This document shows, in pieces, positions 3,184-20,279 of a stretch of DNA of 64,000 nucleotides. The position numbers and the translations under genes are program-made. How positions within the stretch are numbered: position 1 is the stretch's first letter; every line of letters starts with the position of its first letter. The stretch comes from Streptomyces sp. NBC_01298 (GTDB taxonomy: Bacteria; Actinomycetota; Actinomycetes; Streptomycetales; Streptomycetaceae), in NCBI RefSeq assembly GCF_035978755.1, contig NZ_CP108414.1, forward strand, positions 5,704,001 through 5,768,000, written 5' to 3'. The notes beneath the pieces are model-generated. The model was given only the letters and a program-made list of their open reading frames with translations, had not been told where the DNA came from and ran no database searches.

Positions 3184-3744
3184 ATGACCGAGGTGTCCTC
3201 CCTCACAGGGCGGCTGCTCGTGGCCACCCCCGCCCTCGCGGACCCGAATTTCGACCGCGCGGTCGTCCTGCTGCTCGACCACGACGACCAAGGCTCGCTC
3301 GGTGTCGTCCTCAACCGCCCCACCCCGGTGGGCGTCGGCGACGTCCTGCTGCCCTGGGCTCCGCTGGCCAAGGACCCCGGCGTGGTCTTCCAGGGCGGCC
3401 CGGTGGCGCTGGACTCGGCGCTGGGGCTGGCGGTCATCCCGGGCGAGGAGGGGCCGCTCGGCTGGCGCCGGGTGCACGGGGCGATCGGCCTGGTGGACCT
3501 GGAGGCCCCGCCCGAACTCCTCGCGGCGGCCCTGGGGGGCCTGCGCATCTTCGCCGGGTACTCGGGCTGGGGCCCGGGGCAGCTGGAGGAGGAACTGGGC
3601 GTGGGCGCCTGGTACGTGGTCGATTCCGAGCCGGGCGACGTCTCCTTCCCGGATCCGGAACGGCTGTGGCGAGCCGTGCTGCGGCGCCAGCGCAGCGAGC
3701 TGGCCATGGTGGCCACGTACGCGGACGACCCGTCGCTGAACTGA
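3184..3744 (+). CDS. YqgE/AlgH family protein (UPF0301)
   Basis: A 186-residue cytoplasmic protein of the YqgE/AlgH family, whose biochemical role is not established. Typical family segments are visible: LTGRLLVATPALADPNFDRAV at the start, GVVLNRPT, FQGGPV and the GYSGWGPGQLEEEL motif near residue 120. The ATG at 3184 is preferred because the open frame upstream codes for non-conserved Arg/Pro-rich sequence. The gene is divergent from murA (273 bp between starts) and is followed 72 bp later by the DUF3039 gene. Confidence 0.88.
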   Translation: MTEVSSLTGRLLVATPALADPNFDRAVVLLLDHDDQGSLGVVLNRPTPVGVGDVLLPWAPLAKDPGVVFQGGPVALDSALGLAVIPGEEGPLGWRRVHGAIGLVDLEAPPELLAAALGGLRIFAGYSGWGPGQLEEELGVGAWYVVDSEPGDVSFPDPERLWRAVLRRQRSELAMVATYADDPSLN

Positions 3745-3816
3745 GCCCGGGGCCGGGGCGGCCGCGGGGGCCGGTGCGGATCCCTCGCGCGCGAGGGACT
3801 CGGTACCCTGGCAGTC

Positions 3817-4104
3817 ATGAGCACTCTTGAGCCCGATCGCGGGACTGGTACGGGGACCCTCGTAGAGCCGACGCCGCAGGTGTCCCACGGCGACGGCGAC
3901 CACGAGCGCTTCGCCCACTACGTCCAGAAGGACAAGATCATGGAGAGCGCGCTCGGGGGCACCCCCGTCGTCGCGCTCTGCGGCAAGGTCTGGGTGCCGG
4001 GCCGGGACCCGAAGAAGTACCCGGTCTGCCCCATGTGCAAGGAGATCTACGAGTCCATGGGCCCCGGCGGGGACAAGGACAAGGGCGGCAAGGACGGGAA
4101 GTAG
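3817..4104 (+). CDS. DUF3039 family protein
   Basis: A 95-residue protein matching the actinobacterial DUF3039 pattern. It has the conserved core DKIMESALGGTPVVALCGK, then a cysteine pair in VCPMCKEIY that with the upstream ALC could hold a metal. The N-terminus (Gly/Thr-rich) and C-terminus (Lys/Gly-rich, ending GGKDGK) are low complexity. Function is unknown. A terminator hairpin follows 26 bp later. Confidence 0.85.
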   Translation: MSTLEPDRGTGTGTLVEPTPQVSHGDGDHERFAHYVQKDKIMESALGGTPVVALCGKVWVPGRDPKKYPVCPMCKEIYESMGPGGDKDKGGKDGK

Positions 4105-4130
4105 TCCTCCGGCCCTCCTGGAACGGGACG

Positions 4131-4169
4131 AAGGCCCTCGGTGCGCACACGTGCGCCCGGGGGCCTTTT
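4131..4169 (+). terminator. Hairpin terminator after DUF3039 gene
   Basis: AAGGCCC...GGGCCTT outer arms with an inner GTGCGCAC/GTGCGC stem are followed by TTTT. It lies between the DUF3039 stop and the hexosaminidase gene. Confidence 0.8.
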
Positions 4170-4221
4170 CCGTGCCCCGGGGGCGGGTTAGGGTCGCCGC
4201 ATCAGCGCCATGTGAAACGTG

Positions 4222-4240
4222 CGTTGCACATGCTGCAACG
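4222..4240. promoter_or_regulatory. Inverted repeat at the hexosaminidase ribosome-binding site
   Basis: CGTTGCA and TGCAACG flank the 5-base spacer CATGC and end 1-2 bases before the GTGGAGGAG ribosome-binding site of the GH20 gene. The TTGCA...TGCAA form resembles operators of LacI/GalR-type sugar regulators. It does not match the dre site of DasR. Binding here would block transcription or translation start. Confidence 0.45.
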
Positions 4241-4257
4241 GTGGAGGAGCCGATCCC

Positions 4258-5907
4258 ATGCCCGAGTTGATCCCGCAGCCCCGGTACGCGCGATTCCTGC
4301 CCGACGCCGGCACCTACGAGCTCACCGACCCGCTGCTCGACGCCGCTCCCGGTACCGAGGGCGCCGCCCGCTGGCTGCGCCGCGAACTCGGCGCGGCCAC
4401 CGGCTGGGCGCTGCCGGCCCCGGCCCGCGGGGAGGCGTCCGGCGAACGCCCGGTCATCCGGCTCGCGCTGCGCCCGGACATCGCGCGGGGGACCGGGGCC
4501 GAGTCGTACGAGGTCCACGTCGCGGCCTGCTCCGTCCTCCTGGAGGGCGCCGATGAGGCGGGCCTCTTCTATGCCGCCCAGACGCTGCGTCAGCTCCTGG
4601 GCGCCGACGCGTACCGGCGGGCGCCGCTGCCCGGAGCGGTGTGGCGGCTGCCGGTCGGCGATCTCCAGGACGGGCCCCGCTTCGGCTGGCGCGGGCTGAT
4701 GCTCGACGTGGCCCGGCACTTCATGCCCAAGGACGCGGTGCTGCGGTACGTCGACCTGCTCGCCGCCCACAAGCTCAACGTGCTGCACCTGCACCTGACG
4801 GACGACCAGGGCTGGCGGGTCGAGATCAAGCGCTACCCGCGGCTCACCGAGGTCGGCGCCTGGCGGGCCCGCAGCCGGTGGGGCCACCGGGCCTCGCCGC
4901 TCTGGAACGAGACCCCGCACGGCGGCTTCTACACCCAGGACGACCTGCGCGAGATCGTCGCGTACGCGGCGGAGCGGCACGTGCGGGTGGTGCCGGAGAT
5001 CGACGTGCCGGGGCACTCGCAGGCCGCGATCGCCGCGTACCCGGAGCTCGGGAACACCGACGTGGTGGACACGGCGGCGCTGGAGGTGTGGGACGACTGG
5101 GGCGTCAACGAGAACGTGCTCGCGCCCACCGAGGCCGTCCTGCGGTTCTACGAGGGGGTCTTCGAGGAGCTGCTGGAGATCTTCCCGCCGGAGGTCTCGC
5201 CCTTCGTGCACGTGGGCGGCGACGAGTGCCCCAAGGCGCAGTGGAAGGCCTCCGCGGCGGCGCGGGAGCGGATCCGGGAGCTGGGGGTCGACGGCGAGGA
5301 CGGTCTGCAGTCCTGGTTCATCCGGCACTTCGACGGCTGGCTCGCGGAGCGCGGCCGCCGGCTCATCGGCTGGGACGAGATCCTGGAGGGCGGACTGGCC
5401 CCGGGAGCGGCCGTGTCCTCCTGGCGCGGCTACGAGGGCGGCATCGCCGCCGCGGAGGCCGGCCACGACGTGGTGATGTGCCCCGAGCAGCAGGTGTACC
5501 TGGACCACCGTCAGGCGGGCGGCGAGGACGAGCCGATGCCCATCGGGTACGTGAGGACATTGGAGGATGTGTACCGGTTCGAGCCGGTTCCGCCGAAGTT
5601 GTCCGAGGAGGCCGCCGCCCACGTGCTGGGCGCGCAGGCCAACGTGTGGACCGAGGTGATGGAGGACCAGAGCCGCGTCGACTACCAGGTGTTCCCGCGC
5701 CTCGCGGCCTTCGCCGAGGTGGTGTGGTCCCGGCTGCCGGAGCCCGCGGAGCGGGACTACGCGGACTTCGAGGCGCGGATGGCGGCCCACTACCGGCGGC
5801 TGGACGCCCTCGGGGTCGACTACCGGCGACCGGGCGGCCCGTTGCCGTGGCAGCGCCGGCCCGGAGTGCTCGGACGCCCGATCGAGGGAGCGCCCCCGAA
5901 CGTGTGA
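4258..5907 (+). CDS. Beta-N-acetylhexosaminidase, glycoside hydrolase family 20
   Basis: Removes terminal GlcNAc/GalNAc from chitobiose-like or peptidoglycan-derived sugars by substrate-assisted catalysis. In the 549-residue protein an N-terminal GH20b-like domain (about 1-130) precedes the TIM barrel, which starts near FGWRGLMLDVARHFM. The catalytic pair is D322-E323 in HVGGDECPK, and the DDQGWR and EIDVPGHSQA segments are conserved. The ATG at 4258 has GGAGG 8 bases upstream. No signal peptide is visible, so the enzyme is probably intracellular and acts on imported di- or oligosaccharides. This fits the GlcNAc PTS genes at 52.6-56.1 kb. Confidence 0.93.
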   Translation: MPELIPQPRYARFLPDAGTYELTDPLLDAAPGTEGAARWLRRELGAATGWALPAPARGEASGERPVIRLALRPDIARGTGAESYEVHVAACSVLLEGADEAGLFYAAQTLRQLLGADAYRRAPLPGAVWRLPVGDLQDGPRFGWRGLMLDVARHFMPKDAVLRYVDLLAAHKLNVLHLHLTDDQGWRVEIKRYPRLTEVGAWRARSRWGHRASPLWNETPHGGFYTQDDLREIVAYAAERHVRVVPEIDVPGHSQAAIAAYPELGNTDVVDTAALEVWDDWGVNENVLAPTEAVLRFYEGVFEELLEIFPPEVSPFVHVGGDECPKAQWKASAAARERIRELGVDGEDGLQSWFIRHFDGWLAERGRRLIGWDEILEGGLAPGAAVSSWRGYEGGIAAAEAGHDVVMCPEQQVYLDHRQAGGEDEPMPIGYVRTLEDVYRFEPVPPKLSEEAAAHVLGAQANVWTEVMEDQSRVDYQVFPRLAAFAEVVWSRLPEPAERDYADFEARMAAHYRRLDALGVDYRRPGGPLPWQRRPGVLGRPIEGAPPNV

Positions 5908-7265: not shown

Positions 7266-9259
7266 GTGAGAACGACAACACGGGTGCCGCGGGCTCCACG
7301 GGCCCCCACTGGGGCTGGGAGCCGGTGCCGCACGGCGGCGAGTACGACTCCGACGCCACGGCCTTCGTGAAACTGCCGCAGGACATGCTGGACGCGCTCG
7401 GCACCGGGGAGCCCCTCGCGGCCCCCGGGCACGGCTACGTGCCGCCGCCGATGATCGTGCCGCTGGGCACGGGGAGCACGGACCCCGCGGCCACGGGTAC
7501 CTGGACGATCCCGGTGCAGTGGCCCGAGGCGGGCGCGGCGGCTCCGGCGGACGCGGGTGCGGACGCGGGCGCTCCGGGGGTCGCTGCGCGGGCGCCGATC
7601 CCGGCGTCGGTGCCGATCCCGGCCTCGGTGGCCGCGGCGTTCGCCGATCCGGCGGCCGAGCCGGTGGCCGAGCCCGTCGCGGATCCCTACCGGGAGTCGT
7701 TCGGCGAGCCCTTCGCGGAGCCCTTCGCGGGGCCCTACGGGGACCCCGTCGGGGAGTCCTTCGGGGGCTCCGCCGGGGACTCCATCGGGTCCGCCGGGGA
7801 GTCCTTCGCGGGGAGCCGGGCCGGCGCGCACGAACCGGGGGCGACCGCCGAGTGGCACTTCCCCGAGGCGGCGGCGAGCGACGTGTGGACCCCGGGCGGC
7901 GCCGGCGACACCGGCAGCTTCGGGCAGCTCGCGGCGGCGGCCGACTGGAGCCGGGCCCCCGCGACGCTGCCGGGCGGGGCCGCGGCCCCGTGGGCGACGC
8001 ATCCGGACTTCGAGGGTGCGCGCGGGTACCTGGCGCAGCAGCCGGACGGGGACGGGGCGGGTTCCGATCCGCTGGGTTCCGGCCCGCTGGGCTCCGATGC
8101 GCTGGGCTCCGATCCGCTGGGCTCCGGGGTGCTTCCCGGGGATTCCGCACCGGCCGGCGGACCCTTCGGCCCGGCCCCGGGGCGCGGACCGCGCGTGCTG
8201 GGCGGCCCGGGCGTCGGTACCCCGCTGGAGGGGGAGCCGGTCCACCCGGCCCCGCACGACATCGAAGCCGCCCACGGCCCGGCGCAGGTTCCGGACTCGG
8301 GGGAGCGGCAGCATCCGGGGAGCGAGAGCGAACCCGGCGGCGAAGCCGGGGCCGAGGGCGAAGCCGGGGCCGCCGAGGCGGAGCCGGGGTTCGGCGCGGG
8401 CGTGCCGGGCCAGGGCGAAGCCGGGGCCGGGCCCGTGCCGAGTAGGGACGACGCCGACCTGGCTGTCGAGACGGCTCCGGCGGGGACGGCCGAAGGGGTT
8501 CCGGCCGAGGGGGAGACGTACGAAGAAGAATCCCTCGAGGGGGCGTCCGGAGCGGACGCCGGGGCCGTGGCCCAGCACGAGCACCCGTCGGCCTCCTACG
8601 TCCTGCGCGTCAACGGCGCCGACCGGCCCGTCACCGGCGCCTGGATCGGCGAGTCCCTCCTCTACGTGCTGCGCGAGCGCCTCGGCCTCGCCGGCGCCAA
8701 GGACGGCTGCTCCCAGGGCGAATGCGGCGCCTGCGCCGTGCAGGTCGACGGCCGGCTCGTCGCCTCCTGCCTCGTCCCCGCGGCCACCGCCGCGGGCAGT
8801 GAGGTCCGTACCGTGGAAGGCCTCGCGACCGACGGGGAACTGTCGGACGTGCAAGAGGCGTTGTGCAGGTCGGGTGCGGTGCAGTGCGGGTTCTGCGTGC
8901 CCGGCATGGCCATGACCATCCACGACCTGCTGGAAGGCAACCACGCCCCCAGCGAGCTGGAGACCCGCCAGGCGCTGTGCGGCAACCTCTGCCGCTGCTC
9001 CGGGTACTCGGGCGTCATCGAGGCCGTCCGCGAGGTCGTGGCCGAGCGCGGCTCGGCGGCGGAAGCCGCCGCCGCGGCCTCGGCCGAGGCACGGATCCCG
9101 CACCAGGCCCCGCCGGGCGAGGGCGGCTTCCACGGGCCGCAGGGCGACGCGGGCCGGCAGGGCGACCACGGAATCCAGGGCGACCACGGAGTCCAGGGCA
9201 ACCACGGAGTCCAGGGCAACCAGGGCAACCACGGCAACCACGAGGGAGGCACGGCGTGA
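7262..9259 (+). CDS. 2Fe-2S subunit of molybdenum hydroxylase with long low-complexity N-terminus and collagen-like tail
   Basis: Iron-sulfur electron-transfer subunit. The functional domain is only about residues 445-600. A plant-ferredoxin-like 2Fe-2S site uses C483, C488, C491 and C503 (GCSQGECGAC), and a second helical 2Fe-2S domain uses C542 and C545 (QCGFCVPGMA) and the CGNLCRC motif. The first 440 residues are Gly/Pro/Ala/Glu-rich with short repeats such as FAEPFAGPYGDP and SDPLGSGPLG, and have no fold I recognise. The C-terminus ends in about twelve Gly-X-Y triplets. At 665 residues it is about four times the usual 160. An N-terminal extension of this kind is, as I recall, seen in other streptomycetes. 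ATG 7262 overlaps the FAD gene stop. Confidence 0.9.
   Translation: MSENDNTGAAGSTGPHWGWEPVPHGGEYDSDATAFVKLPQDMLDALGTGEPLAAPGHGYVPPPMIVPLGTGSTDPAATGTWTIPVQWPEAGAAAPADAGADAGAPGVAARAPIPASVPIPASVAAAFADPAAEPVAEPVADPYRESFGEPFAEPFAGPYGDPVGESFGGSAGDSIGSAGESFAGSRAGAHEPGATAEWHFPEAAASDVWTPGGAGDTGSFGQLAAAADWSRAPATLPGGAAAPWATHPDFEGARGYLAQQPDGDGAGSDPLGSGPLGSDALGSDPLGSGVLPGDSAPAGGPFGPAPGRGPRVLGGPGVGTPLEGEPVHPAPHDIEAAHGPAQVPDSGERQHPGSESEPGGEAGAEGEAGAAEAEPGFGAGVPGQGEAGAGPVPSRDDADLAVETAPAGTAEGVPAEGETYEEESLEGASGADAGAVAQHEHPSASYVLRVNGADRPVTGAWIGESLLYVLRERLGLAGAKDGCSQGECGACAVQVDGRLVASCLVPAATAAGSEVRTVEGLATDGELSDVQEALCRSGAVQCGFCVPGMAMTIHDLLEGNHAPSELETRQALCGNLCRCSGYSGVIEAVREVVAERGSAAEAAAAASAEARIPHQAPPGEGGFHGPQGDAGRQGDHGIQGDHGVQGNHGVQGNQGNHGNHEGGTA
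9158..9241 (+). repeat. Tandem 18-bp repeat coding for Gly-X-Y triplets
   Basis: Units starting CAGGGCGACCACGGA occur at 9158, 9176, 9194 and 9212, with a degenerate end. In frame they give GDHGIQ, GDHGVQ and GNHGVQ, a collagen-like tract at the C-terminus of the 2Fe-2S subunit. Confidence 0.85.
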
Positions 9260-11589
9260 GCGCCCACGACGCGGCGACGGTCCCGGTATCGGTCACGACA
9301 CCGTTGCCCGAGGGCACGGAGCCGTCGGAGTCGGCGGTCCCGCGCGGCATCGGCGCGTCCGTCCCGGCCACCGACACCCGCGCCAAGACCGAGGGCACCT
9401 TCCCCTACGCCGCCGACCTGTGGGCCGAGGGCCTCCTCTGGGCCGCCGTGCTGCGCTCCCCGCACGCCCACGCCCGCATCCTCTCCATCGACACCTCCGC
9501 CGCCGCCGAGATGCCCGGCGTGCGCGCCGTCGTCACCCACGCCGACGTCCCCGGCGCCACCACGCACGGCCGCCGCATCGCCGACCGGCCCGTCTTCGCG
9601 CACGACGTGGTCCGCCACCACGGCGAGTCCATCGCCGCCGTCGCCGCCGACCACCCCGACACCGCACGCCTCGCGGCCGCCGCGATCGCCGTCGAGTACG
9701 AGCTCCTCGACCCGGTCACCGACCCCGAACAGGCCTTCGGCGCCCCCGACCTGCACCCCGACGGCAACCTGATCCGGCACATCCCGCTGCGCTACGGCGA
9801 CCCCGAAGCCACCGGCGACGTCGTCGTCGAGGGCCTCTACCGCATCGGCCGCCAGGACCCCGCCCCCATCGGCGCCGAGGCCGGGCTGGCCGTACCGCGC
9901 CCGGACGGCGGCGTGGAGATCTACACCGCCTCCACCGACCCGCACACCGACCGCGACCTGGCCGCCGCCTGCTTCGGGCTGGAACCGGACCGCGTACGGG
10001 TCGTGGTCACCGGGGTCCCGGGCGCGACGGCGGACCGCGAGGACGCCGCGTTCCAGCTCCCGCTCGGCCTGCTGGCCCTGCGCACCGGCTGCCCCGTGAA
10101 GCTGGCCGCCACCCGCGAGGAGTCCTTCCTCGGCCACGCCCACCGCCACCCGACGCTGCTGCGCTACCGCCACCACGCGGACCTGGAGGGCCGGCTGGTC
10201 AAGGTCGAGGCCCAGATCCTGATGGACGCCGGCGCCTACGCCGACGCCTCCTCGGAATCCCTGGCCGCCGCGGTGGCCTTCGCCTGCGGCCCGTACGTGG
10301 TTCCGCACGCCTTCGTGGAAGGCTGGGCGGTCCGTACGAACAACCCCCCGTCGGGCCACGTGCGCGGCGAAGGCGCCATGCAGGTCTGCGCGGCCTACGA
10401 GGGCCAGATGGACAAGCTGGCGGCCGCCCTCGGCATCGACGGCGCCGAACTGCGCCTGCGCAACGTCCTGGCCACCGGCGACCTCCTCCCGACCGGCCAG
10501 ACGGTCACCTGCCCCGCCCCCGTGGCGGAACTCCTGCGCGCGGTCCGCGACCACGAGCTGCCCGCCCTCCCCAAGGACACCCCGGAGGAGGACTGGCTGC
10601 TCCCCGGCGGCCTGGAGGGCGCGGGCGAGCCGGGCGCGGTGCGGCGCGGGGTCGGGTACGGGGTCGGCATGGTCCACATGCTCGGCGCCGAGGGCACCGA
10701 CGAGGTGTCCACGGCCACGGTGAAGATCGTCGGCGGCGCCGCGACGGTCATCTGCGCGGCCGTCGACACCGGCCAGGGCTTCTCCACGCTCGCCCGCCAG
10801 ATCGTCCAGGAGACCCTGGGCGTCGACGAGGTCGTCACGGCCCCGGTCGACACCGACCAGCCGCCGGCGGGCCCCTCGGCCCACGGCCGCCACACCTGGG
10901 TCTCGGGCGGCGCGGTGGAACGCGCGGCGAAGATGGTCCGCACCCAGCTCCTCCAGCCGATGGCGCACAAACTGGGCATGTCCACCGAACTCCTCCAGAT
11001 CGCGGATGGCCGGATCACGTCGTACGACGGCGCGTTCTCCACGACCGTCGCGGAGGCGATGGAGGGCAAGGAACTCTGGGCCACGGCCCAGTGCCGCCCG
11101 CACCCGACGGAGCCGCTGGACGGCGACGGCCAGGGCGACGCCTTCGTCGGCCTCGCCTTCTGCGCGATCCGCGCGGTGGTCGACGTGGACATCGAGCTGG
11201 GCTCCGTGCGCGTCGTGGAGCTCGCGGTAGCCCAGGACGTCGGCCGCGTCCTCAACCCCCGCCAGCTGGAAGCCCGTATCGAAGCGGGCGTCATCCAGGG
11301 CGTGGGCGCGGCCCTGACGGAGAACCTCCGCACGGCCTCGGGCCTGATCCGCCACCCGGACCTGACGGGCTACGCCCTGCCCACCTCCCTGGACGCCCCG
11401 ACGGTCCGCATCGTCAAACTCGTCGAGGAACGCGACGTGGTGGCCCCCTTCGGCGCCAAGCCGGCGAGCGCCGTCCCGGTGGTCACGGCCCCGGCGGCGG
11501 TGGCCTCGGCGGTCCGCGCGGCCACGGGCCGCCCGGTCAACAGGCTCCCGATCCGGCCATCGGCGGCGGTGGCGGCGCCCAACTCGTGA
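9256..11589 (+). CDS. Xanthine dehydrogenase family, molybdopterin-binding catalytic subunit
   Basis: Large catalytic subunit that binds the molybdenum-pterin cofactor and hydroxylates an aldehyde, purine or other heterocycle. The 777-residue protein has an N-terminal a/b hammerhead domain (RAKTEGTFPYAADL to about residue 170) followed by the Mo-cofactor domains with DTGQGFSTLARQ and the C-terminal GGVIQG-type segment VIQGVGAALTE. GTG 9256 overlaps the previous stop by 4 bases. The substrate cannot be read from the sequence. No XdhC-type maturation gene or purine gene is adjacent, so xanthine as substrate is only a family-level guess. Confidence 0.9.
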   Translation: MSAHDAATVPVSVTTPLPEGTEPSESAVPRGIGASVPATDTRAKTEGTFPYAADLWAEGLLWAAVLRSPHAHARILSIDTSAAAEMPGVRAVVTHADVPGATTHGRRIADRPVFAHDVVRHHGESIAAVAADHPDTARLAAAAIAVEYELLDPVTDPEQAFGAPDLHPDGNLIRHIPLRYGDPEATGDVVVEGLYRIGRQDPAPIGAEAGLAVPRPDGGVEIYTASTDPHTDRDLAAACFGLEPDRVRVVVTGVPGATADREDAAFQLPLGLLALRTGCPVKLAATREESFLGHAHRHPTLLRYRHHADLEGRLVKVEAQILMDAGAYADASSESLAAAVAFACGPYVVPHAFVEGWAVRTNNPPSGHVRGEGAMQVCAAYEGQMDKLAAALGIDGAELRLRNVLATGDLLPTGQTVTCPAPVAELLRAVRDHELPALPKDTPEEDWLLPGGLEGAGEPGAVRRGVGYGVGMVHMLGAEGTDEVSTATVKIVGGAATVICAAVDTGQGFSTLARQIVQETLGVDEVVTAPVDTDQPPAGPSAHGRHTWVSGGAVERAAKMVRTQLLQPMAHKLGMSTELLQIADGRITSYDGAFSTTVAEAMEGKELWATAQCRPHPTEPLDGDGQGDAFVGLAFCAIRAVVDVDIELGSVRVVELAVAQDVGRVLNPRQLEARIEAGVIQGVGAALTENLRTASGLIRHPDLTGYALPTSLDAPTVRIVKLVEERDVVAPFGAKPASAVPVVTAPAAVASAVRAATGRPVNRLPIRPSAAVAAPNS

Positions 11590-11623: not shown

Positions 11624-11652
11624 TTGGGCCTGTCGGACTCTCTCGATACAGT
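11624..11652 (+). promoter_or_regulatory. Sigma70-type promoter of the ESX-like operon
   Basis: TTGGGC (11624-11629) and TACAGT (11647-11652) are separated by exactly 17 bases. They lie about 84 bp before the first gene of the six-gene operon and 35 bp after the molybdenum-subunit stop. The spacing and the TANNNT -10 fit the main vegetative (HrdB-type) sigma factor. Confidence 0.6.
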
Positions 11653-11735: not shown

Positions 11736-12236
11736 GTGGCAGTGGACTATGGGCCGGGCGTGTTCGGAGTGGACTTCGGTGTGGGCGTGGCCTCACCGGC
11801 GGCTCTGGGCGCGCTCCAGGTCGAGTACGAATCGCTGACGGACTACAAGAAGCGGGTCGACGGTCTGCTGGAGAAGCTGGACGGCTCCCCGGCGAGCGAC
11901 AAAAAACTGGCGGACGGCACCCTCCCGGAGAACTCCCTGGGCGAGGGCTTCGCGGAGGCCAAGCGACTGTTCACGGCCTACTCGACGGTGCACACGCAGT
12001 TGCTCGCGCTGTCCAAGGGGCTGGCGGATCAGATCGAGGGGCTCGGTATCGCGATCCAGACGGCGGGACGGGGCTTCGGGAACGTGGACGAGGACACGAA
12101 GCGGCGGATGCTGGCGATCAGTGAGCAGGCGAAGGCCAACTACGTCCCGGAACGGGACCCTCTCGCGCCTCCGCCGCCGCACAGTTCTGCCTCGCAGGGC
12201 GCAACTCCCGGTGCGACGCAAGGTGGTGGCTTCTAA
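11736..12236 (+). CDS. Small helical protein, first gene of ESX-like operon
   Basis: A 166-residue protein with no signal peptide. It has a helical region (ALQVEYESLTDYKKRVDGLLEKL), a turn containing LPENSLGEGF where WXG-type proteins carry their turn, a second long helix (EAKRLFTAYSTVHTQLL to about residue 115) and a Pro/Ser/Gly-rich end. The helix-turn-helix layout and position next to a WXG protein suggest an ESX-type substrate or chaperone, but the W-x-G is absent. GTG 11736 has GGGGAGG 6 bases upstream. The open frame further upstream is Cys/Arg-rich and unlikely. Its stop overlaps the next start by one base. Confidence 0.75.
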   Translation: MAVDYGPGVFGVDFGVGVASPAALGALQVEYESLTDYKKRVDGLLEKLDGSPASDKKLADGTLPENSLGEGFAEAKRLFTAYSTVHTQLLALSKGLADQIEGLGIAIQTAGRGFGNVDEDTKRRMLAISEQAKANYVPERDPLAPPPPHSSASQGATPGATQGGGF

Positions 12237-13714
12237 TGGCGACGAACTTCGAGAACCACACGCACCAGCAGCTGCTGGCCATGCTCGCCTCGGCCAACGC
12301 GGAGACCCTCAAGGAGCGCGGCGCGCAGCTGACGGACGCCGCGGCGACCATCAAGGAGATCGGCGAGAGCCTCAAGGACCACCGGGTGACCGGCTGGGAA
12401 GGCGAATCGGGCACGGCCTTCCAGGACTGGGTCAGCCGCGCGGGCAACGCGACGCTGCGCCTGAGCGAGTACAGCGCCGAGGGCGGCAAGCAGCTGACGC
12501 AGGCCAGCCAGGTCGTCATCGAGGTCAAGGCCAACATGCCGACGTACGACTCGACGGCGGCGGCCAACCTCGAAGCGGCCCGCGAGTACCACAACGACCC
12601 GGACGCGCAGCAGATCGGCCAGCAGGCCCACTCGAAGCTGAGCGGCGACCGGCAGCAGGCGATCCAGCAGATGACGAAGCTGGCCCAGGGGTACGAGGCT
12701 TCGGCCACCGGGATGGAGATGGCGGAGGTTCCGACGTTTCCGGAGCCGCCGCCGGCGTTCGTTCCACCGAGGGTGCACGGGTCTGAAGATGTAGCCCGCT
12801 CCAGTGGCGGCACCGGAGGGACCGGATCAGGCGGATCGTCGTATGCGCCGGTAACGGCGACGCACAGTGGTTCATCGCCCGATTCTGACTCCTCAGGTGG
12901 TGCGGGCAGTACCGGTCTGACGCCAACTGCTCCGACGCCGGGCCCCGTTCCGGTGCCACCGGACCGCAGCATTGGCACTGGACTCGACACCGTCGGCCCG
13001 GTACCGAGTACGACCCTTCCCCCGGCCCCGGGAGTACCCGGCGGTCCGGGGCCGGTCGGGCCGGGCGGAGGCGGTCCGGGTGTCACCCCCGGAGGGTTCG
13101 TCCCGCCTCTGACGCTACCGCCGGGTGTTGGCACACAGAAGCCGATCGGGGGTGTCGGCCCTGGTGGCTTCGGTCCCGGCGGGAGCATTCCCGGAGCCGG
13201 CGGGATCGGCGGTAAGGGTGGCGGACTAGGCGGTGTTGCTGGGCTGCCCCCGCGCGACAGCGGGATCAGTGGCGGTAGGCCTGTCACGCCCGGTGGGCCG
13301 GGTACGAGCATTCCTCGTGGCACGGTCATCGGCGGTGAGGGCTCTCAGGCAGCTGGTCGCGGCATGGGCATGGGTGGCGGCATGGGCGGAGGCCCGCACG
13401 GCGGTTCCGGCGGTGCTTCCATGGCCGGTCGTCGTCTCGCCACCGAACCGGGCGGTGTCGTCGGTGGGCGTCAGCCGGGGGCGGGGGGGCGCTCGATCGC
13501 AGGTGGTCAGCCGTTCACTCAGGGCGGTACGGGACTGGTTCGTGGTGGATCGGGTGCTGGTCCGGTGGGTGGACCGATGGGTCACGGTGGCGCGGGTGCA
13601 CATGCTTCGGGCAGGCGGGGCGACGGGCAGCGGGGTGAGCGCGCTGACTATCTGGCTGAGGATGCAGAGACGTGGCAGGACGGCCGTGGCGTCGTTCCGC
13701 CGGTGATTGACTGA
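12236..13714 (+). CDS. WXG100/PPE-like protein with Gly-Pro-rich tail
   Basis: A 492-residue candidate type VII (ESX) substrate. The first about 165 residues form a helical hairpin with the W-x-G turn at W54-E55-G56 (TGWEGESG) and long helices on both sides. Residues about 165-450 are Gly/Pro/Ser-rich with GG-x-G repeats. The end carries an acidic-aromatic block (DYLAEDAETW) then VVPPVID, which I recall as a common end of streptomycete PPE-type proteins. The ATG overlaps the previous TAA (TAATG). The gene sits directly before the mycosin gene with 12 bases between. It has no signal peptide, consistent with ESX export rather than Sec. Confidence 0.85.
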   Translation: MATNFENHTHQQLLAMLASANAETLKERGAQLTDAAATIKEIGESLKDHRVTGWEGESGTAFQDWVSRAGNATLRLSEYSAEGGKQLTQASQVVIEVKANMPTYDSTAAANLEAAREYHNDPDAQQIGQQAHSKLSGDRQQAIQQMTKLAQGYEASATGMEMAEVPTFPEPPPAFVPPRVHGSEDVARSSGGTGGTGSGGSSYAPVTATHSGSSPDSDSSGGAGSTGLTPTAPTPGPVPVPPDRSIGTGLDTVGPVPSTTLPPAPGVPGGPGPVGPGGGGPGVTPGGFVPPLTLPPGVGTQKPIGGVGPGGFGPGGSIPGAGGIGGKGGGLGGVAGLPPRDSGISGGRPVTPGGPGTSIPRGTVIGGEGSQAAGRGMGMGGGMGGGPHGGSGGASMAGRRLATEPGGVVGGRQPGAGGRSIAGGQPFTQGGTGLVRGGSGAGPVGGPMGHGGAGAHASGRRGDGQRGERADYLAEDAETWQDGRGVVPPVID

Positions 13715-13726
13715 CTGGAGTAGACG

Positions 13727-14914
13727 TTGCACGGGATGCGTATGCGCAAGGCGACCGCGGTCTTGGCGGGTTTCCTGCTGGCGGGGGTCGCTGCGACTCC
13801 AGCTCACGCAGAGACCATTAGGTCGAAGCAGTGGCACCTCACGTCGATGAAGGCCGATGACATCTGGAAGTCCAGTACTGGTAAGGGTGTCACGGTCGCT
13901 GTCATCGACGGTGGAGTTAATCGCATCCCTGAACTGGAAGGGCAGGTAGTCCCCGGAAAGGACTTCGCCACGACCTATGACGGAGACGAACGAACGGACT
14001 CGAACGAGCACGGTACTGCGATGGCTGCGTTGATCGCGGGAACCGGTAAGCACCCAAGCGGTGATGGGTCGTTCGGCCTTGCTCCAGGGGCTAAGATCCT
14101 CCCGATCCGCGTGCCCGAAGCCGTCGACGTAAGGAATGCATCCTGGACTGCGGCGATTCGGTACGCGGCGGACTCGGAAGCGAAGATCATAAACATTTCG
14201 CTGGCGTCTTCTGACGAAGACCCGGCGCGCCTTGATGTAGTGAAGTACGCGCTTTCTAAAGGCAAGTTGATCTTTGCCGGTGTCGGCAATGACGGGGACT
14301 CGACGAACAAGTTGATGTATCCGGCAGGGACGCCCGGCGTGGTGGGTGTCGGGGCTGTCGATTCCACTGGCAAGGCGACTGCGGAGTCACAGCATGGTTC
14401 GCAGGTGGATCTGTCGGCCCCGGGTATCGACATCATCTCGGCCTGTTCTGGGAAGACGGGCTTGTGCAAAAGCCACGGCACAAGTGACGCCACCGCCCTC
14501 GCCTCCGCCTCCGCCGCGCTGATCTGGTCCGCCCACCCGGAGTGGACCAACAACCAGGTTCTCCGGGTCATGATGAACACCGCCGGCAAGCCCCTCGACG
14601 GCGCCGAGCGCAGTGACTTCATTGGGTACGGCACCGTCCGCCCCCGCATCGCCGTGCCCAACCCCGGCGACCCCGGTCCCGCGGACGTCTACCCGCTCCC
14701 CGACCTCGCCGCAGCCGGCGGCGGTACCGGGACCAAGGTCCCCTCGGCGCCGTCCTCCGCCGCACCCTCCGGCCAGGCGGCCACCCCCGCCCCCCAAGCC
14801 GAGGCAAAGGCAGAGGGCAGTGGCAGCCTCCCCTGGCTCGCCCTCGGCCTCGGCGCCTGCGTGCTCATCGGTGGAGCCGTCACCGCGGTCGTCGTCCGGC
14901 GCAGGGCACGCTGA
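13727..14914 (+). CDS. Type VII secretion-associated serine protease (mycosin), subtilase S8 family
   Basis: Membrane-anchored subtilisin-like protease of the mycosin (MycP) type. It has a signal peptide (residues 1-28, ending THAHA-like), a catalytic triad D61 (VIDGGV), H95 (NEHGTAMA) and S253 (SHGTSDATALAS), and oxyanion N188 (GVGNDG). A Pro/Ala-rich linker follows, then a C-terminal transmembrane helix (about 365-388) ending VVRRRAR, so the catalytic domain faces outside. TTG 13727 was chosen because GGAG lies 6 bases upstream. ATG at 13736 or 13742 are alternatives. In mycobacterial ESX systems MycP processes substrates and stabilises the translocon. Codon use in 13730-14450 looks less GC-biased than neighbours. 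Confidence 0.92.
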   Translation: MHGMRMRKATAVLAGFLLAGVAATPAHAETIRSKQWHLTSMKADDIWKSSTGKGVTVAVIDGGVNRIPELEGQVVPGKDFATTYDGDERTDSNEHGTAMAALIAGTGKHPSGDGSFGLAPGAKILPIRVPEAVDVRNASWTAAIRYAADSEAKIINISLASSDEDPARLDVVKYALSKGKLIFAGVGNDGDSTNKLMYPAGTPGVVGVGAVDSTGKATAESQHGSQVDLSAPGIDIISACSGKTGLCKSHGTSDATALASASAALIWSAHPEWTNNQVLRVMMNTAGKPLDGAERSDFIGYGTVRPRIAVPNPGDPGPADVYPLPDLAAAGGGTGTKVPSAPSSAAPSGQAATPAPQAEAKAEGSGSLPWLALGLGACVLIGGAVTAVVVRRRAR

Positions 14915-14970
14915 GTCGCTGAGCCGCGTACAGCCGTACCGCCGTACAGGCAGAAAAGGGAGCGCACGCC

Positions 14971-15396
14971 GTGTCATTCGACGAGGAGTGGTCCGAGGCC
15001 CGGACCACCGCCGCCGCCAACGTCGCCACGCGGCTCAACAGCGTCCCGGCCGCGCCCGGGCCCGGCGGCGGCAGCGCCGATCTGGAGCTGAACCAGGACC
15101 ACATCGGCGAGGTCGGCTCCGAGGCCTACAAGCTCCACACCCGGCTCTCCACCGACGGCAAGCACGCCGCCGCCTCCACCGCCGAGGCGGCCGGCGCGCT
15201 CACGCGCGAGGGCTTCGCGAGCGGTGCGGCCCTGCTCAAGGTCAACAGCCGCTGGGAGAGCCAGCTCAAGACCCTCGTCGCCGCCTGCGCGAACATCTCC
15301 AACGGCCTGAACTACTCGCTCTCCTCGCACAGCAAGGAAGAGCAGCAGCTGCACGCCGATTTCACGGCCTCCAAGATCGACGAGCTCCTCAAGTGA
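14971..15396 (+). CDS. Small WXG100-like helical protein
   Basis: A 141-residue, mostly helical protein without a signal peptide. Two long helices are predicted around KLHTRLSTDGKHAAAS and LLKVNSRWESQLKTLVAACANIS, with W-E-S where WXG proteins have W-x-G, then a polar end. It is in the size range of ESX partner proteins. GTG 14971 follows AAAAGGGAG. It lies between the mycosin gene and the DUF6571-like gene (16 bases to the next start), suggesting it acts as partner or chaperone for that large protein. Function is inferred from context only. Confidence 0.75.
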   Translation: MSFDEEWSEARTTAAANVATRLNSVPAAPGPGGGSADLELNQDHIGEVGSEAYKLHTRLSTDGKHAAASTAEAAGALTREGFASGAALLKVNSRWESQLKTLVAACANISNGLNYSLSSHSKEEQQLHADFTASKIDELLK

Positions 15397-15412
15397 CGAA
15401 GGTTTCGCACAC

Positions 15413-17773
15413 GTGCTGACGTACGAGAACGTCGTGAACGCGCCCCTCGGTCCGCTCCAGACCGCGATCACCGACTGGGCCGCGATGGTCAAGAAGCTGG
15501 ACGAACTGGCGGAGTCGGCCCGCAACGGCATGAAGGCCAAGTCGGACAAGGCCCAGTGGAACGGCGTCACGGCAGGCGTCGCCCGCCCCTTTATCGACAA
15601 GACGGCCAAGGAGTTCGACGACGCGGCCCGCGAGGCGAAGGGCATCCACAAGGCGCTGGCCGAGGGGCACGAGACCTTCAAGGCCTCGCGTGAGCAGCTC
15701 CGGAAGATCGCCGACGTCGAGGCCCCCGCGGCCGGTTTCCGGGTGAGTGCCGACGGCAAAGTCGAGACGGCGCCCTTCGCGAGCGACGCGGACCGGTATG
15801 CGGCCCGCCACGATCCGGACTACCTGGAGTCCGTCCGTGTGAACCTTCCGCTCTGGCAGGCGAAGGTCGATGCCGTCGTCGATGCCTGCGACGACGTCGA
15901 TCAGTCGCTCGCCCGCCTGCTCACCGCCAATGTCGCGGACGACCACGACTTCACCGCGGCCAAGTACGGCAGCCTCGACGCCGAACAGGCCGCCCGTGCC
16001 GCGGAGCTCGCGAGGAAGGGCCGCGGACTCACGCACGAGGAGCTCGTCGAGCTCAACGAGCTGCTGGCCGACAACGCTAAGGTGCCGGAGTTCTCGACGA
16101 AGTTCTACGAGGCGCTCGGTCCCAAGGGCGCGCTGGAGTTCTTCGGAACGATGTCCACGGACACCTTCGACTATGCGAAGCAGGATCCGCAGCGGCTGGG
16201 GGACGTACGGGAACTCCAGCGAAACCTTGGCTTCAACCTCGCCACGGCCACGAACTCCAGGACCGAACCGCACCTTCCGGACAGCTTCGCCCAGGACCTG
16301 CGCAGACTCGGCACCGAGCGCATCCCGCTGGCCCGCTACGACCAGAACCCGCCCTACGGTTACCAGTTGCTCGGCGGCATCATGCGCTACGGCGCCTACG
16401 ACCCCAAGTTCCTGGTCCCGATCGCCGAGCACGCCACCCAGATCCACGCCAAAGACCCGAACTTCTTCAACGGGGCACGCCAGATCAACGGCTACGGCAA
16501 GAACATGCTCAACCCGTCGGGCATCAACGGCGCCGGCTACGACCCGGTGGTCAGCTTCCTGGAGGCCCTGGGGCACAGCCCGGAGGCGTCCCGGCAGTTC
16601 TTCGACCCGGAGGGGCGCCCGCACGCGTACAACCACGACGGCACGGAGAAGTCCGGCCCCGCCGACCTGGGCAAGGGGCCGGACAAGAAGCCGATCACGA
16701 GCTACCTCGACTTCTTCGCCAACGAGAAGTACGACTTCACCATCGATACGGAAGGTACGAACCCGGACGAGCTGAAGAAGGTCCAGCAGTACATGCCGGA
16801 TGCCCTCGGTCATGCTCTGGAGGCGGCAACCCTCGGTCACGCCTGGGACGACTCCAGGCCCGTCCTCGACCGGACCGAGGCGGGCGCACGGGTCATGGAC
16901 GAGGTCGTCGCGAAGTACGGGGGCGATGCGGGTCTGCTCAAGCACCAGGAGTCGCTCGCGGACAGCCTCGGCACCATGACGGCCGGGTACATCGACGATG
17001 TGAACCATGCGCTGAACGACGAAGAAGGCAAGAAGAACCAAACGGGCAACAGCGTCTTCGCCCCGGGTGCGGACGACAAGCAGGCGCACGCCTCGATGGA
17101 TCGCGCGGGTGCCCGTGATCTGTTGAGTGCGCTGGGGCAGCACCCCGACGCCTACGCGACCGTCTCCACGGCCGAACGGGTTTACGCGGCAAGCGTTCTC
17201 GAGACCCAGGCCGTGCACGACGGACAGGTCGATCAGGGCCGTGCCCGGTCGACCATCAGTACGACGGCAACGGTCCAGGGGATGCTCGATGAGTCCCGGG
17301 CCGGGCAGGTCGCGGCCGAGGGTGCGGACAAGTACGAGGAGTACGAGAAGGCCCACGAGAAGAAGGCGGCGTGGGTCGAGTTTGGCGCCGCCGGAGCGGT
17401 GGCGGCCGGTGTGGCCTTCCTGCCCGCCACCGTGGCTGCCGCAGGGGTCGCGGCGATCGTCGTTCCCCTGGCGACGGACCTGGCCAGCGGAGCGGTGGAG
17501 CAGGCGGCCTCGCAGGTCGTCGGCGAATGGTCCGACGGATCTGTCAAGAAGTACGAGGACGACACGAAGGAAAAGGTGCATCTGACCAACAAGCAGATGT
17601 ACGAAGCGGGTGAACGCAGCGCCGAAGCCCCTATGAATCAATTCATGGAGCGGCATAAAATCGACAGGAACAGTGAATTCGGGAGAGATCTCATCACTGA
17701 AATGGGTTCCGGCTACAGGGATGGGGATTTCCGGGCCGAGCGCCAAGGGCACTCTCCTGAGACGGGTAAGTGA
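15413..17773 (+). CDS. DUF6571-like large ESX-associated protein
   Basis: A 786-residue protein resembling the streptomycete DUF6571 family (function unknown). The first 90 residues are helical with W49-N50-G51 (KAQWNGVTAG), so a WXG-like export module seems fused to a large body. The middle has conserved-looking blocks (ALGPKGALEFFGTM, YGYQLLGGIMRYGAYD, FFNGARQINGYGKNML). A hydrophobic alanine/valine-rich stretch at about 658-690 could be a membrane or pore segment. No toxin motif is recognised at the C-terminus. GTG 15413. It ends flush against the lipoprotein gene. The last 150 bp are less GC-rich. Confidence 0.8.
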   Translation: MLTYENVVNAPLGPLQTAITDWAAMVKKLDELAESARNGMKAKSDKAQWNGVTAGVARPFIDKTAKEFDDAAREAKGIHKALAEGHETFKASREQLRKIADVEAPAAGFRVSADGKVETAPFASDADRYAARHDPDYLESVRVNLPLWQAKVDAVVDACDDVDQSLARLLTANVADDHDFTAAKYGSLDAEQAARAAELARKGRGLTHEELVELNELLADNAKVPEFSTKFYEALGPKGALEFFGTMSTDTFDYAKQDPQRLGDVRELQRNLGFNLATATNSRTEPHLPDSFAQDLRRLGTERIPLARYDQNPPYGYQLLGGIMRYGAYDPKFLVPIAEHATQIHAKDPNFFNGARQINGYGKNMLNPSGINGAGYDPVVSFLEALGHSPEASRQFFDPEGRPHAYNHDGTEKSGPADLGKGPDKKPITSYLDFFANEKYDFTIDTEGTNPDELKKVQQYMPDALGHALEAATLGHAWDDSRPVLDRTEAGARVMDEVVAKYGGDAGLLKHQESLADSLGTMTAGYIDDVNHALNDEEGKKNQTGNSVFAPGADDKQAHASMDRAGARDLLSALGQHPDAYATVSTAERVYAASVLETQAVHDGQVDQGRARSTISTTATVQGMLDESRAGQVAAEGADKYEEYEKAHEKKAAWVEFGAAGAVAAGVAFLPATVAAAGVAAIVVPLATDLASGAVEQAASQVVGEWSDGSVKKYEDDTKEKVHLTNKQMYEAGERSAEAPMNQFMERHKIDRNSEFGRDLITEMGSGYRDGDFRAERQGHSPETGK

Positions 17774-18487
17774 GTGATGGTGCGAAGCGGTTCACGGCTC
17801 CTGCGGGCGGGCAGTGTCGGCCTGGTCTTGGTGGGTGTGTTGACGTCCGGATGCGCGTCGCCGGAGGAGCCTGAGGAGCCGGTGCTCGAGCCGAGAGTGG
17901 TTGCGGCTACCGGTGTCTGCGGGGGGACGCTCTTCCCGGCCGGCGCGGGTCCGTCCCTTGAGCGCGTTCTGGAATCCTCGAAGTTCGTCATCCGGGACGA
18001 GGACAAGGATCTGAGCACTGCGGAGAGCGCCAAGATGCTGGAGGACGCCTACCGCTCCGGGAAGGATGTGCGCAACAAGCCCACGGCTGACTGCAAAATC
18101 TCCGGGGAAGAACGGCTCGTCGGTGATTACGAGCGCTACGTGTCGGCCCTGGTGAGATTCAAAGCATTCAGTAAGAAGGCCTGGACCTCCGGGGTGGGGG
18201 AAGAGGTTTATGACGAGGGTGTCTCGGTGACGGGGGCGAAGCGCCAGCGCAGCATCGAGTTCGACTGCGTCAGCGCACGCGTCGGCTCCAGTGTCGAGAT
18301 CCCCCTTCGGGTCACCGTCACCTTCATGAACCAGTTCGGCGAGGGCGCCGACGATGAGGCGGTCCTCGTCAACGACTACCTCCTGCTGGCCCACGCGGCC
18401 GGCCTCTCGATGTCCAAGGAGCTGGGCTGCGCCGACAACGGCGGCCTCCCCGCCGGTCCCGAGGGCCTGCCGGCCATGATCCCCTGA
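17774..18487 (+). CDS. Lipoprotein of ESX-like operon
   Basis: A 237-residue predicted lipoprotein: basic N-terminus, hydrophobic core and lipobox LTSGC with the lipidated cysteine at residue 27, followed by an acidic PEEPEEP linker. The mature part has two further cysteine contexts (ADCKIS, ELGCAD) and no family I recognise. GTG 17774 directly follows the TGA of the preceding gene; an ATG one codon later is an equal choice. As last gene of the operon it may be an extracellular partner or immunity-type protein for the 786-residue product. That is inference from position only. Confidence 0.75.
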   Translation: MMVRSGSRLLRAGSVGLVLVGVLTSGCASPEEPEEPVLEPRVVAATGVCGGTLFPAGAGPSLERVLESSKFVIRDEDKDLSTAESAKMLEDAYRSGKDVRNKPTADCKISGEERLVGDYERYVSALVRFKAFSKKAWTSGVGEEVYDEGVSVTGAKRQRSIEFDCVSARVGSSVEIPLRVTVTFMNQFGEGADDEAVLVNDYLLLAHAAGLSMSKELGCADNGGLPAGPEGLPAMIP

Positions 18488-18500
18488 GGCTGCGTACGAC

Positions 18501-18540
18501 GAAGGCCGCTCGGGGGAGCGCCTTCCCCTGAGCGGCCTTC
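18501..18540 (+). terminator. Terminator closing the ESX-like operon
   Basis: Arms GAAGGCCGCTC (18501-18511) and GAGCGGCCTTC (18530-18540) pair perfectly, with further inner G/C pairs. It lies 13 bp after the lipoprotein stop and 8 bp before the tRNA-Cys 3' end. Confidence 0.85.
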
Positions 18541-18547
18541 GGTCTGG

Positions 18548-18619
18548 AAGCCGTGACCGGAATCGAACCGGCGTAACTCGCTTTGCAGGCGAGTCCCTCA
18601 ACCACTCGGGCACACGGCT
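18548..18619 (-). tRNA. tRNA-Cys (GCA)
   Basis: Read on the minus strand it forms a complete cloverleaf. The acceptor AGCCGTG pairs with CACGGCT (18613-18619 with 18549-18555). The anticodon stem CTCGC/GCGAG carries anticodon GCA, the T-loop is GGTTCGATTCC, and the discriminator base is U73, as expected for cysteine. CCA is not encoded. Its 3' end faces the ESX-like operon. Confidence 0.93.
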
Positions 18620-18821: not shown

Positions 18822-20279
18822 ATGAGCGTCCTCCCCCAGCGAGCTGCTGTCACACCCGCCGAAGCGATACCCGACCCGAAGGGCGGGGTCCTCGGGCCCG
18901 CGTACCGGACGCTCAGCATCGGGATCATTTCCGTTGTCTTCTTGATCGCCTTCGAGGCCACAGCCGTCGGGACCGCCATGCCCGTGGCCGCCCGGGAGCT
19001 GGACGGGATCGCGCTCTACGCCTTCGCCTTCTCCGCCTACTTCACGACCAGCCTCTTCGGGATGGTGCTCTCCGGGCAGTGGGCCGACCGGCAGGGGCCG
19101 CTGCGGCCGCTGACCGTGGGGATCGGGTGCTTCGCCGCCGGGCTGGTGTGTTCCGGGACCGCCGGGGCGATGTGGATGTTCGTGCTCGGGCGGGCCGTGC
19201 AGGGGTTCGGGGGCGGGCTGGTCATCGTGGCGCTCTACGTGGTCGTCAGCCGGGCCTACGAGGAGCGGCTGAGGCCCGCGATCATGGCGGCCTTCGCCGC
19301 GAGCTGGGTCGTGCCGTCGATCGTCGGGCCGCTGGCCGCGGGGACGGTCACCGAGCACCTCGGGTGGCGCTGGGTGTTCCTCGGGATCCCCGCGCTGGTC
19401 TTCGTACCGCTGGCCGTGGCGCTGCCCGCGATACGGCGGAACGCGTCCGGGCCGGTGGACCCCGAGGCGCCGCCCGTGGCGTTCGACCGGCGGCGGATCC
19501 GGCTCGCCCTCGGGATCTCGGCCGGTGCGGGGCTGCTGCAGTACGCCGCGCAGGATCTGCGGTGGCTGTCGTTGCTGCCGGGGATCGCGGGGGCGGCCCT
19601 GCTGGTGCCCGCCGTGCTGGGGCTGCTGCCGCGCGGGACCTATCGGGCGCGGCGCGGGCTGCCGTCGGTGGTGCTGCTGCGCGGTGTGGCGGCGGGGTCG
19701 TTCATCGCGGCGGAGAGCTTCGTACCGCTGATGCTGGTCACCCAGCGGGGGCTGAGCCCGACGATGGCCGGGTTCTCGCTCGCGCTGGGCGGGGTGACGT
19801 GGGCGCTCGGCTCGTGGGTGCAGTCGAAGGGGCGGATGGATCCGCACCGGGAGCGGTTGATCGTGCTGGGCATGGTCATGGTCGCGGTGGCCATCGCCGG
19901 GGCGCCCGCGGTGCTCGTGGAGTGGGTGCCGGTGTGGACGATGGCGCTCGTGTGGGCGCTGGGGTGCCTGGGGATGGGGCTCGTGATCGGGTCCACGAGC
20001 GTGCTGCTGCTGAAGCTGTCGGCGCCGGAGGAGGCGGGGGCGAACTCCGCCTCGCTGCAGATCTCCGACGCGCTGGCGAACGTCGTGCTGCTGGCGGCGG
20101 GCGGGGCGGCGTTCGCCGCGCTGGGCGGGGGAGCGGTGGGGGCGGCGCACTCCGTGGCGGAGGGGGCCGGGGCTTCGCACCCCGGCGCGTTCGTGGTGGT
20201 GTTCCTGCCGATGGCCTGTGTGGCCTTGGTGGGGGCGTGGGTCGCCACCCGGCTGGACGCGGAGCCCCGGCGGGGCTGA
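18822..20279 (+). CDS. MFS transporter (drug/metabolite exporter type)
   Basis: A 485-residue integral membrane protein with about 12-14 hydrophobic helices. MFS motif A appears as GQWADRQGPL after helix 2, and the RAVQGFGGG segment of the DHA-type exporters lies near residue 125. Likely a proton-driven exporter with unknown substrate. The ATG at 18822 lies 200 bp after the tRNA-Cys gene. No regulator is adjacent. Confidence 0.87.
   Translation: MSVLPQRAAVTPAEAIPDPKGGVLGPAYRTLSIGIISVVFLIAFEATAVGTAMPVAARELDGIALYAFAFSAYFTTSLFGMVLSGQWADRQGPLRPLTVGIGCFAAGLVCSGTAGAMWMFVLGRAVQGFGGGLVIVALYVVVSRAYEERLRPAIMAAFAASWVVPSIVGPLAAGTVTEHLGWRWVFLGIPALVFVPLAVALPAIRRNASGPVDPEAPPVAFDRRRIRLALGISAGAGLLQYAAQDLRWLSLLPGIAGAALLVPAVLGLLPRGTYRARRGLPSVVLLRGVAAGSFIAAESFVPLMLVTQRGLSPTMAGFSLALGGVTWALGSWVQSKGRMDPHRERLIVLGMVMVAVAIAGAPAVLVEWVPVWTMALVWALGCLGMGLVIGSTSVLLLKLSAPEEAGANSASLQISDALANVVLLAAGGAAFAALGGGAVGAAHSVAEGAGASHPGAFVVVFLPMACVALVGAWVATRLDAEPRRG

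Follow-up and report, generated by a model that had tools for sequence, protein, structure and literature searches.

Which secretion system could serve an operon that encodes its own mycosin and WXG-like proteins at a site without EccB, EccC or EccD? The question is raised by six adjacent open reading frames on the forward strand at 11736-18487 of the window, the whole stretch of 64,000 nucleotides that was analysed (G000:C1:5704001-5768000, from a Streptomyces genome of 9.7 Mb). The preferred reading, to which we give a probability of roughly 0.7, is that the operon is an accessory ESX segment away from its translocon, in which a PE/PPE-like pair with its own protease and a triad of Lap-like, effector and immunity proteins would be exported by a distant ESX. 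The reading rests on the genes, their motifs, a PPE-like fold model, a lone ESX locus, ESX linkage in relatives and two mycosin clades; export, partnering, proteolysis, toxicity and immunity are what we infer from them.

Operon layout and the lone ESX locus

The ORF coordinates bore out the originally predicted six genes with intergenic gaps of -1 to 56 bases. The operon comprises two modules, module A (g1, g2 and the mycosin g3) and module B (g4, g5 and g6). They are adjacent here, and tblastn searches and gene maps also found them apart in other genomes; the single six-gene unit of the original prediction thus holds for this locus and not as a fixed block. A possible promoter, TTGGGC-17-TACAGT on the forward strand (11624..11652), was readable by eye as predicted and failed a 9-of-12 consensus scan. 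A strong GC-rich hairpin was found on the same strand 3' of g6 (18498..18544; -41.3 kcal/mol, z -4.0, with 0 of 200 shuffles folding as well). The hairpin has no T-run and is not listed by the terminator scan; the transcript may end there, near the originally predicted operon end.

In the genome-wide search, EccB, EccC and EccD each yielded one match over the cut-off, all at 2.71-2.72 Mb and, as predicted, none in the window. EccE was identified by a search of the 2.71-2.72 Mb locus, and the same locus (L067) also carries a mycosin and two WXG100 proteins, one of which scored below the NCBIfam cut-off and above the Pfam cut-off. Of the set taken to define an ESX gene cluster (EccB, EccC, EccD and EccE), the first three were not found at the operon, which lies 3.0 Mb from the sole translocon found in the genome. 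According to the preferred reading, the operon would belong to the Streptomyces ESX (type VII) system as an accessory segment, placed off the translocon in this lineage, and the single chromosomal EccB-EccC-EccD-EccE complex would serve it in trans.

The mycobacterial espACD genes are unlinked to their ESX translocon and are not known to include a mycosin. The operon studied here would resemble them in encoding substrates at a distance from the translocon, whereas its gene content differs and includes a mycosin. In the available part of PMC8401907, the espACD loci are mentioned as gained by horizontal transfer and as acting together with ESX-1.

Module B, a large WXG-like protein between two putative partners

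Module B consists of g4 (14971..15396, + strand), a small, putatively helical protein of 141 aa; g5 (15413..17773, + strand), a helical protein of 786 aa with a WXG-like leader; and g6 (17774..18487, + strand), a lipoprotein of 237 aa, as predicted, with a lipobox readable in the translation. In the Pfam and NCBIfam profile search, none of these three proteins, nor g1 or g2, matched a family over the curated cut-off, and g3 alone passed. The leader of g5 (residues 1-178) is followed by a helical body (about 179-640), a hydrophobic stretch (about 653-695, Kyte-Doolittle 2.19) and C-terminal helices. The turn and hydrophobic stretch agree with the original prediction, and the turn, W49-N-G51, was invariant in 22/22 aligned sequences. 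No Pfam or NCBIfam LXG match was found in g5 and its 22 aligned homologues, and a search of g5 and homologues for a toxic domain found none. Five of the 22 homologues gave a weak match to DUF6571 (PF20211, E up to 0.01), the window's g5 itself gave none, and some plasmid-borne relatives are annotated as DUF6571; the label denotes a family without an assigned function, and a literature search for it returned no paper.

The 80 loci examined for neighbours were taken from GTDB records and are the best 80 of 104 stretches encoding a relative. Across these loci module B was near-obligate, with g4 directly upstream of g5 in 71/80 and a lipoprotein, recognised by lipobox or g6 profile, directly downstream in 78/80. 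A background count in the same loci placed a lipoprotein-like ORF directly downstream of 38/58 g5-type genes (a set that includes the leader-only genes of L122 and L124 and possible fragments) compared to 7/346 other genes. The lipoproteins diverge far faster than g5, with a median pairwise identity of 0.27 among the partners compared to 0.61 for the g5 body. The g5 homologues were even in length, and no swapped C-terminal domain was found among the aligned full-length ones; identity within the clade was 0.53 for the C-terminal part and 0.52 for the leader, and the last 85 residues were the most variable across 42 wider homologues. A g5-type leader also precedes other payloads in other genes, including records annotated as polymorphic toxin type 44, and one genome can hold several g5-type loci.

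In the proposed mechanism, g4 would pair with the WXG-like leader of g5, as a Lap protein does with LXG, and g5 would be exported through the same ESX as module A. The hydrophobic C-terminal segment of g5 would then act on or in a membrane, and g6, on the outside of that membrane, would protect the producer or hold g5 there. The Lap-like assignment of g4 is suggested by position only, and no significant profile match of g4 to EsxA/EsxB was found. The roles first suggested for g5 as cargo and g6 as partner or self-protection are plausible, given a lipoprotein that is nearly always adjacent and fast-evolving; we put forward an effector-immunity role of g5 and g6 tentatively, and toxicity of g5, which we infer, is the weakest step of the explanation. 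In dozens of species, module B supplies a putative effector accompanied by a lipoprotein. The arrangement resembles the LXG loci and TslA-TilA of the Bacillota T7SSb, in which a small helical partner gene lies 5' and an immunity gene 3' of a gene for a large protein with a helical leader; g4 and g6 take those places here, and the immunity protein TilA is itself a lipoprotein (PMC10730906, available part). In contrast to those loci, g5 has no LXG or lipase domain match, its clade holds no swapped toxic domain, and the actinobacterial EccC system is present here instead of EssC.

The same observations could be read as development rather than antagonism: all six genes would encode secreted or envelope ESX proteins for sporulation or aerial growth, with g5 structural or adhesive, g6 its anchor and no toxin-immunity function. 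For S. coelicolor and S. scabies, the available part of PMC8401907 states an apparent role of ESX in development and sporulation, and the even length of the g5 homologues and the want of a swapped C-terminal or toxic domain among them agree with such a role. The fast divergence of the lipoproteins, the fact that a genome can have several g5-type loci and the sharing of the leader with other payloads, polymorphic toxin type 44 annotations among them, speak against it, and we consider development unlikely.

Module A and the two mycosin clades

On the preferred reading, g1 and g2 would form a PE/PPE-like heterodimer, with an export motif on g1 and a WXG turn and disordered tail on g2, and the pair would leave the cell through EccC. 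The small, putatively helical protein g1 (11736..12236, + strand, 166 aa) has the aromatic-xxx-acid motif F114-G-N-V-D, and [YF]xxx[DE] occupied the motif column in 32/32 aligned g1 rows, which correspond to 29 distinct genes with G072, G158 and G200 counted twice. No significant profile match of g1 to Esx was found, and g1 is a putative PE-like partner of g2. In g2 (12236..13714, + strand, 492 aa), residues 1-175 form a PPE/EspB-like helical domain and residues 179-492 a disordered Gly/Pro-rich tail. The structure model (pLDDT mostly >90 in the domain and <50 in the tail) displayed the helical fold of PPE domains, and no Pfam PPE match over the gathering score was obtained for g2. The predicted W54-E-G56 was present, with W54 and G56 invariant in 17/17 aligned sequences, and a C-terminus of the type DYLxEDEETW...PPVID was kept in the window's clade.

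The third gene, g3 (13727..14914, + strand, 395 aa), encodes an S8 protease of a second mycosin class. It scored 291.2 bits against the curated mycosin model TIGR03921 (cut-off 278.75) and is, by its sequence, a mycosin, the sole gene of the operon for which membership in a known family is claimed. The intact D61/H95/S253 triad of the original prediction was found together with N188, which completes the subtilase catalytic residues. Judged by hydropathy, its N-terminus is signal-peptide-like (1.48 in residues 1-45) and its C-terminus carries a hydrophobic anchor (2.33 at 372). The membrane-anchored g3 would trim the tail of g2 outside the membrane, as MycP1 trims EspB; processing of EspB by MycP1 in mycobacterial ESX-1 is described in the available part of PMC5082899. 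The odds that g1, g2 and g3 are a PE/PPE-like pair with a processing mycosin appear to us about even.

Three mycosins over the cut-off were found in this genome, at the ESX locus, in the window and at 7.2 Mb. In a maximum-likelihood tree of 61 mycosins, the EccB-linked core sequences (30 rows, 100/100) were separated from the g2-linked sequences (29 rows, 100/99) in a tree for which the tool warns that both clades meet on long branches and in which the long-branch rows G112 and the third mycosin of this genome are of unsure placement. The g2-linked mycosins clustered together whether remote or within an ESX locus, and core and module-A mycosins are two well-supported clades. The D/H/N/S residues were kept in 30/30 core rows and 27/29 module-A rows; one of the two exceptions is truncated and the other, from G068, lacks D, H and S. 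The core mycosin adjoins EccB in most mapped ESX loci (some fetched pieces stop before that gene), and the module-A mycosin gene goes with g2, not with EccB.

The retention of the G068 gene without D, H and S would suit a g3 that serves as a further, stabilising scaffold of the ESX membrane complex, with catalysis incidental and g2 not its substrate, and according to the available part of PMC5082899 mycosins stabilise ESX complexes while proteolysis is dispensable for secretion. Against a scaffold, the catalytic residues were kept in nearly all module-A mycosins, a separate core mycosin already stands beside EccB in most mapped loci, and the module-A gene accompanies g2; we judge a purely structural g3 to be improbable, at about one chance in four. 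In mycobacterial mycosins the two roles are hard to separate, since one gene does both. If Streptomyces splits both roles over the two clades, each would be separable by single deletions, outside mycobacteria.

Compared with EspB-MycP1, module A shares a mycosin and a PPE-like domain that continues into a long, disordered tail rich in Gly and Pro. EspB structures aligned to g2 from about residue 125 onward; unlike EspB, g2 has no PE half and is accompanied by a separate small partner, g1, and a dedicated second mycosin stands beside g2, away from this genome's ESX locus. Module A likewise shares with the PE-PPE heterodimers of the Mycolata the PPE fold with a WXG turn in g2 and the aromatic-xxx-acid motif in g1, whereas g2 has no Pfam PPE match over the cut-off. 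Membership in the EspB-MycP1, PE-PPE or Lap-LXG systems is not claimed because, for each of them, the parts lack one or more of the features tested. Streptomyces is not counted among the Mycolata and is not known to have a mycomembrane. A PPE-like fold in the ESX system of such an organism speaks to the question whether PPE proteins evolved to serve an outer membrane. The pe/ppe genes joined ESX clusters on plasmids and in the Mycolata (PMC4791881, available part).

Module and ESX linkage in relatives

The six proteins were compared by tblastn with the surroundings of g5 homologues (38 loci) and with two mycosin loci of this genome, and gene maps were drawn for 60 loci plus the window. Module A was located within 2.5 kb of module B in 10/20 fetched loci whose g5 was 41-74% identical (L047-L066). 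Of the 72 loci whose upstream flank reached 4.5 kb or more, the full trio of g1, g2 and mycosin was found beside g5 in 19, and no trio gene was found within the fetched flank in 37. Because of these two counts, we conclude that modules A and B move independently; the six-gene synteny proposed as a check on the original prediction was seen in part of the loci and was missing from about half.

Profiles of the six genes and of this genome's own ESX proteins served to map L067, L137 and 20 fetched stretches near EccC (L142-L161, of which three are continuation pieces), and 20 further ESX loci were mapped separately. A frequent order was EccE-EccB-core mycosin-g1-g2-second mycosin-EsxA-EsxB-EccC-EccD, often with g4-g5 in between. 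All six genes adjoined EccC in the window's order in G200 (L145), and five of six did so in G086 (L157). In L207 (Streptomyces coelicoflavus), L245 and L250, g4-g5-g6 were found within the ESX locus, between EccC and EccB, with a g5 51-52% identical to the window's. Many relatives have such genes within the ESX gene cluster itself, and in some both modules are there. Since the lone ESX locus of this genome is 3.0 Mb off and the same genes are inside that locus in relatives, dependence of the operon on ESX through a remote translocon, as originally predicted, seems probable. The converse arrangement was also consistent: in 15/15 chosen genomes with only a remote g2, g1, g2 and the second mycosin were absent from the fetched ESX locus (L067, L149, L162-L173, L180), and three of these loci (L149, L168, L180) do hold g4 or g5 matches.

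Co-occurrence was determined in a class draw of 394 genomes, 40 of the same genus. EccC exceeded the cut-off in 38/40 same-genus genomes, g5 was matched in 33/40 and g2 in 33/40, and EccC accompanied g5 in 33/33 and g2 in 33/33. A single g2 match was obtained in 29 of the 33 genomes, two in G113, G116 and G144 and three in G098; in G056 and G089 the g2 match reached E 1e-8 and 2e-7 only. A hand calculation gives 0.027 for the chance that both EccC-less genomes belong to the group of seven that lack g2, so that co-occurrence of g2 and EccC alone is modest evidence and position is the stronger. At least 24/33 genomes have a g2 gene no farther than 30 kb from a listed EccC, and at least 14/33 have a g5 no farther than 10 kb from EccC, with a rough chance expectation below 1; both counts are lower bounds, with few candidates scored per genome and places listed up to a cap, and some remote calls in G098, G142 and G152 could adjoin an EccC beyond those listed.

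Outside the genus, weak or partial g5 matches were found in 28 genomes, 15 of which (six families) have EccC. The other 13, of family f19, gave weak g5 matches and no EccC match at E 1e-100; these matches cover essentially the body, not the leader proper, one of them starting at profile position 151. Three g2-like genes of family f28 were 1-4 kb from EccC. The f19 genomes and the 37/72 module-B loci without a trio gene would suit an accidental sharing of the site by two unrelated functions, module A as an ESX component and module B independent of ESX. The position of module B close to EccC in at least 14/33 same-genus genomes and between EccC and EccB in three loci, the presence of EccC in every same-genus genome with g5 and the failure of the f19 matches to reach the leader argue against this, and we regard it as quite improbable. 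A mere grouping of ordinary Streptomyces orphan genes that are unrelated and carry WXG-like motifs by chance would be in keeping with the want of curated names for most single families and with motif matches that are weak alone, and is very improbable, being contradicted by the linkage counts, the conserved order, the mostly single-copy distribution and the mycosin tree.

To our knowledge, hardly any Streptomyces ESX substrates are known beyond EsxA/EsxB. We suggest, with somewhat less than even confidence, that Streptomyces, a non-mycolate genus, has a PE/PPE-like pair of ESX substrates served by a second mycosin class of their own, that translocon holding and substrate trimming are split over two genes, and that the pair and protease, usually single-copy, can move out of the ESX locus entirely to stand with an effector-immunity triad at another chromosomal site. 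The literature searched, as far as the sources were available, yielded no account of two such mycosin classes, of the two modules or of the unit. The novelty claimed at the outset is qualified by Sfla_1620/Sfla_1621 of Streptomyces pratensis, a mycosin adjoining an ESX-1 secretion-associated Ala/Pro-rich-like protein in an operon with bldB; the available part of that account (PMC4239341) treats the two in passing as divergent core genes and does not include a PPE fold, a second mycosin class, relocation or module B.

Copy number and distance of g2 were also recorded in 30 genomes picked for carrying g5 or an ESX-linked block. One g2 was found in 28 and two in 2, a rate biased by that choice. 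Fifteen of the 32 copies were within 30 kb of EccC and 17 were beyond, 9 of the latter on another contig than EccC in draft genomes, where the distance is undefined. S. lavendulae subsp. lavendulae CCM 3239 (L184) also carries the block, presumably at a remote site. As a separate observation, the core-mycosin tree looks compatible with module A having left the ESX locus once.

Flanks and 3' end of the operon

Gene maps indicated that the same two flanking genes enclose module B (g4-g5-g6), with or without module A (g1-g2-mycosin), in many mapped loci. In the window, these are located at 8863-11589, which we take from its sequence to be a molybdenum-hydroxylase-type gene, and at 18822-20279, presumably, on the same basis, an MFS-transporter-type gene. 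On the minus strand, a tRNA-Cys gene (18545-18619) terminates immediately next to the operon's 3' hairpin (18498-18544), indicating that the operon and the tRNA-Cys gene are convergent transcription units.

The g5 leader and body in other contexts

A second operon with a g4-like gene and a g5-leader gene was observed in the strain's own genome, at about 3211-5530 within locus L122 (G000:C1:4400500-4408500). According to the gene maps, the C-terminal payload behind its leader differs and is Ala/Gly-rich, and two small genes lie 3' of the g5-leader gene; relatives of both small genes follow in locus L123, as does a relative of one in L124.

In 13 genomes of f19, a family outside Streptomyces, g5 matches were weak and covered essentially its body; none of the 13 belonged to the set of genomes that have EccC at E 1e-100. 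The g5 body may have an ESX-independent use in this family.

Additional and altered mycosins

In genome G262 (locus L051, 11053-12929), tblastn with the six proteins revealed a second mycosin in tandem and another, shorter g6-like gene directly 3' of g6. A third own-genome mycosin scored above the curated TIGR03921 cut-off (G000:C1:7201239-7202363, locus L068); no ESX genes were recognised by eye among its listed neighbours. The module-A mycosin of genome G068, positioned within an ESX locus (L152, 8099-9436), has lost the catalytic D, H and S and is apparently a pseudoprotease.
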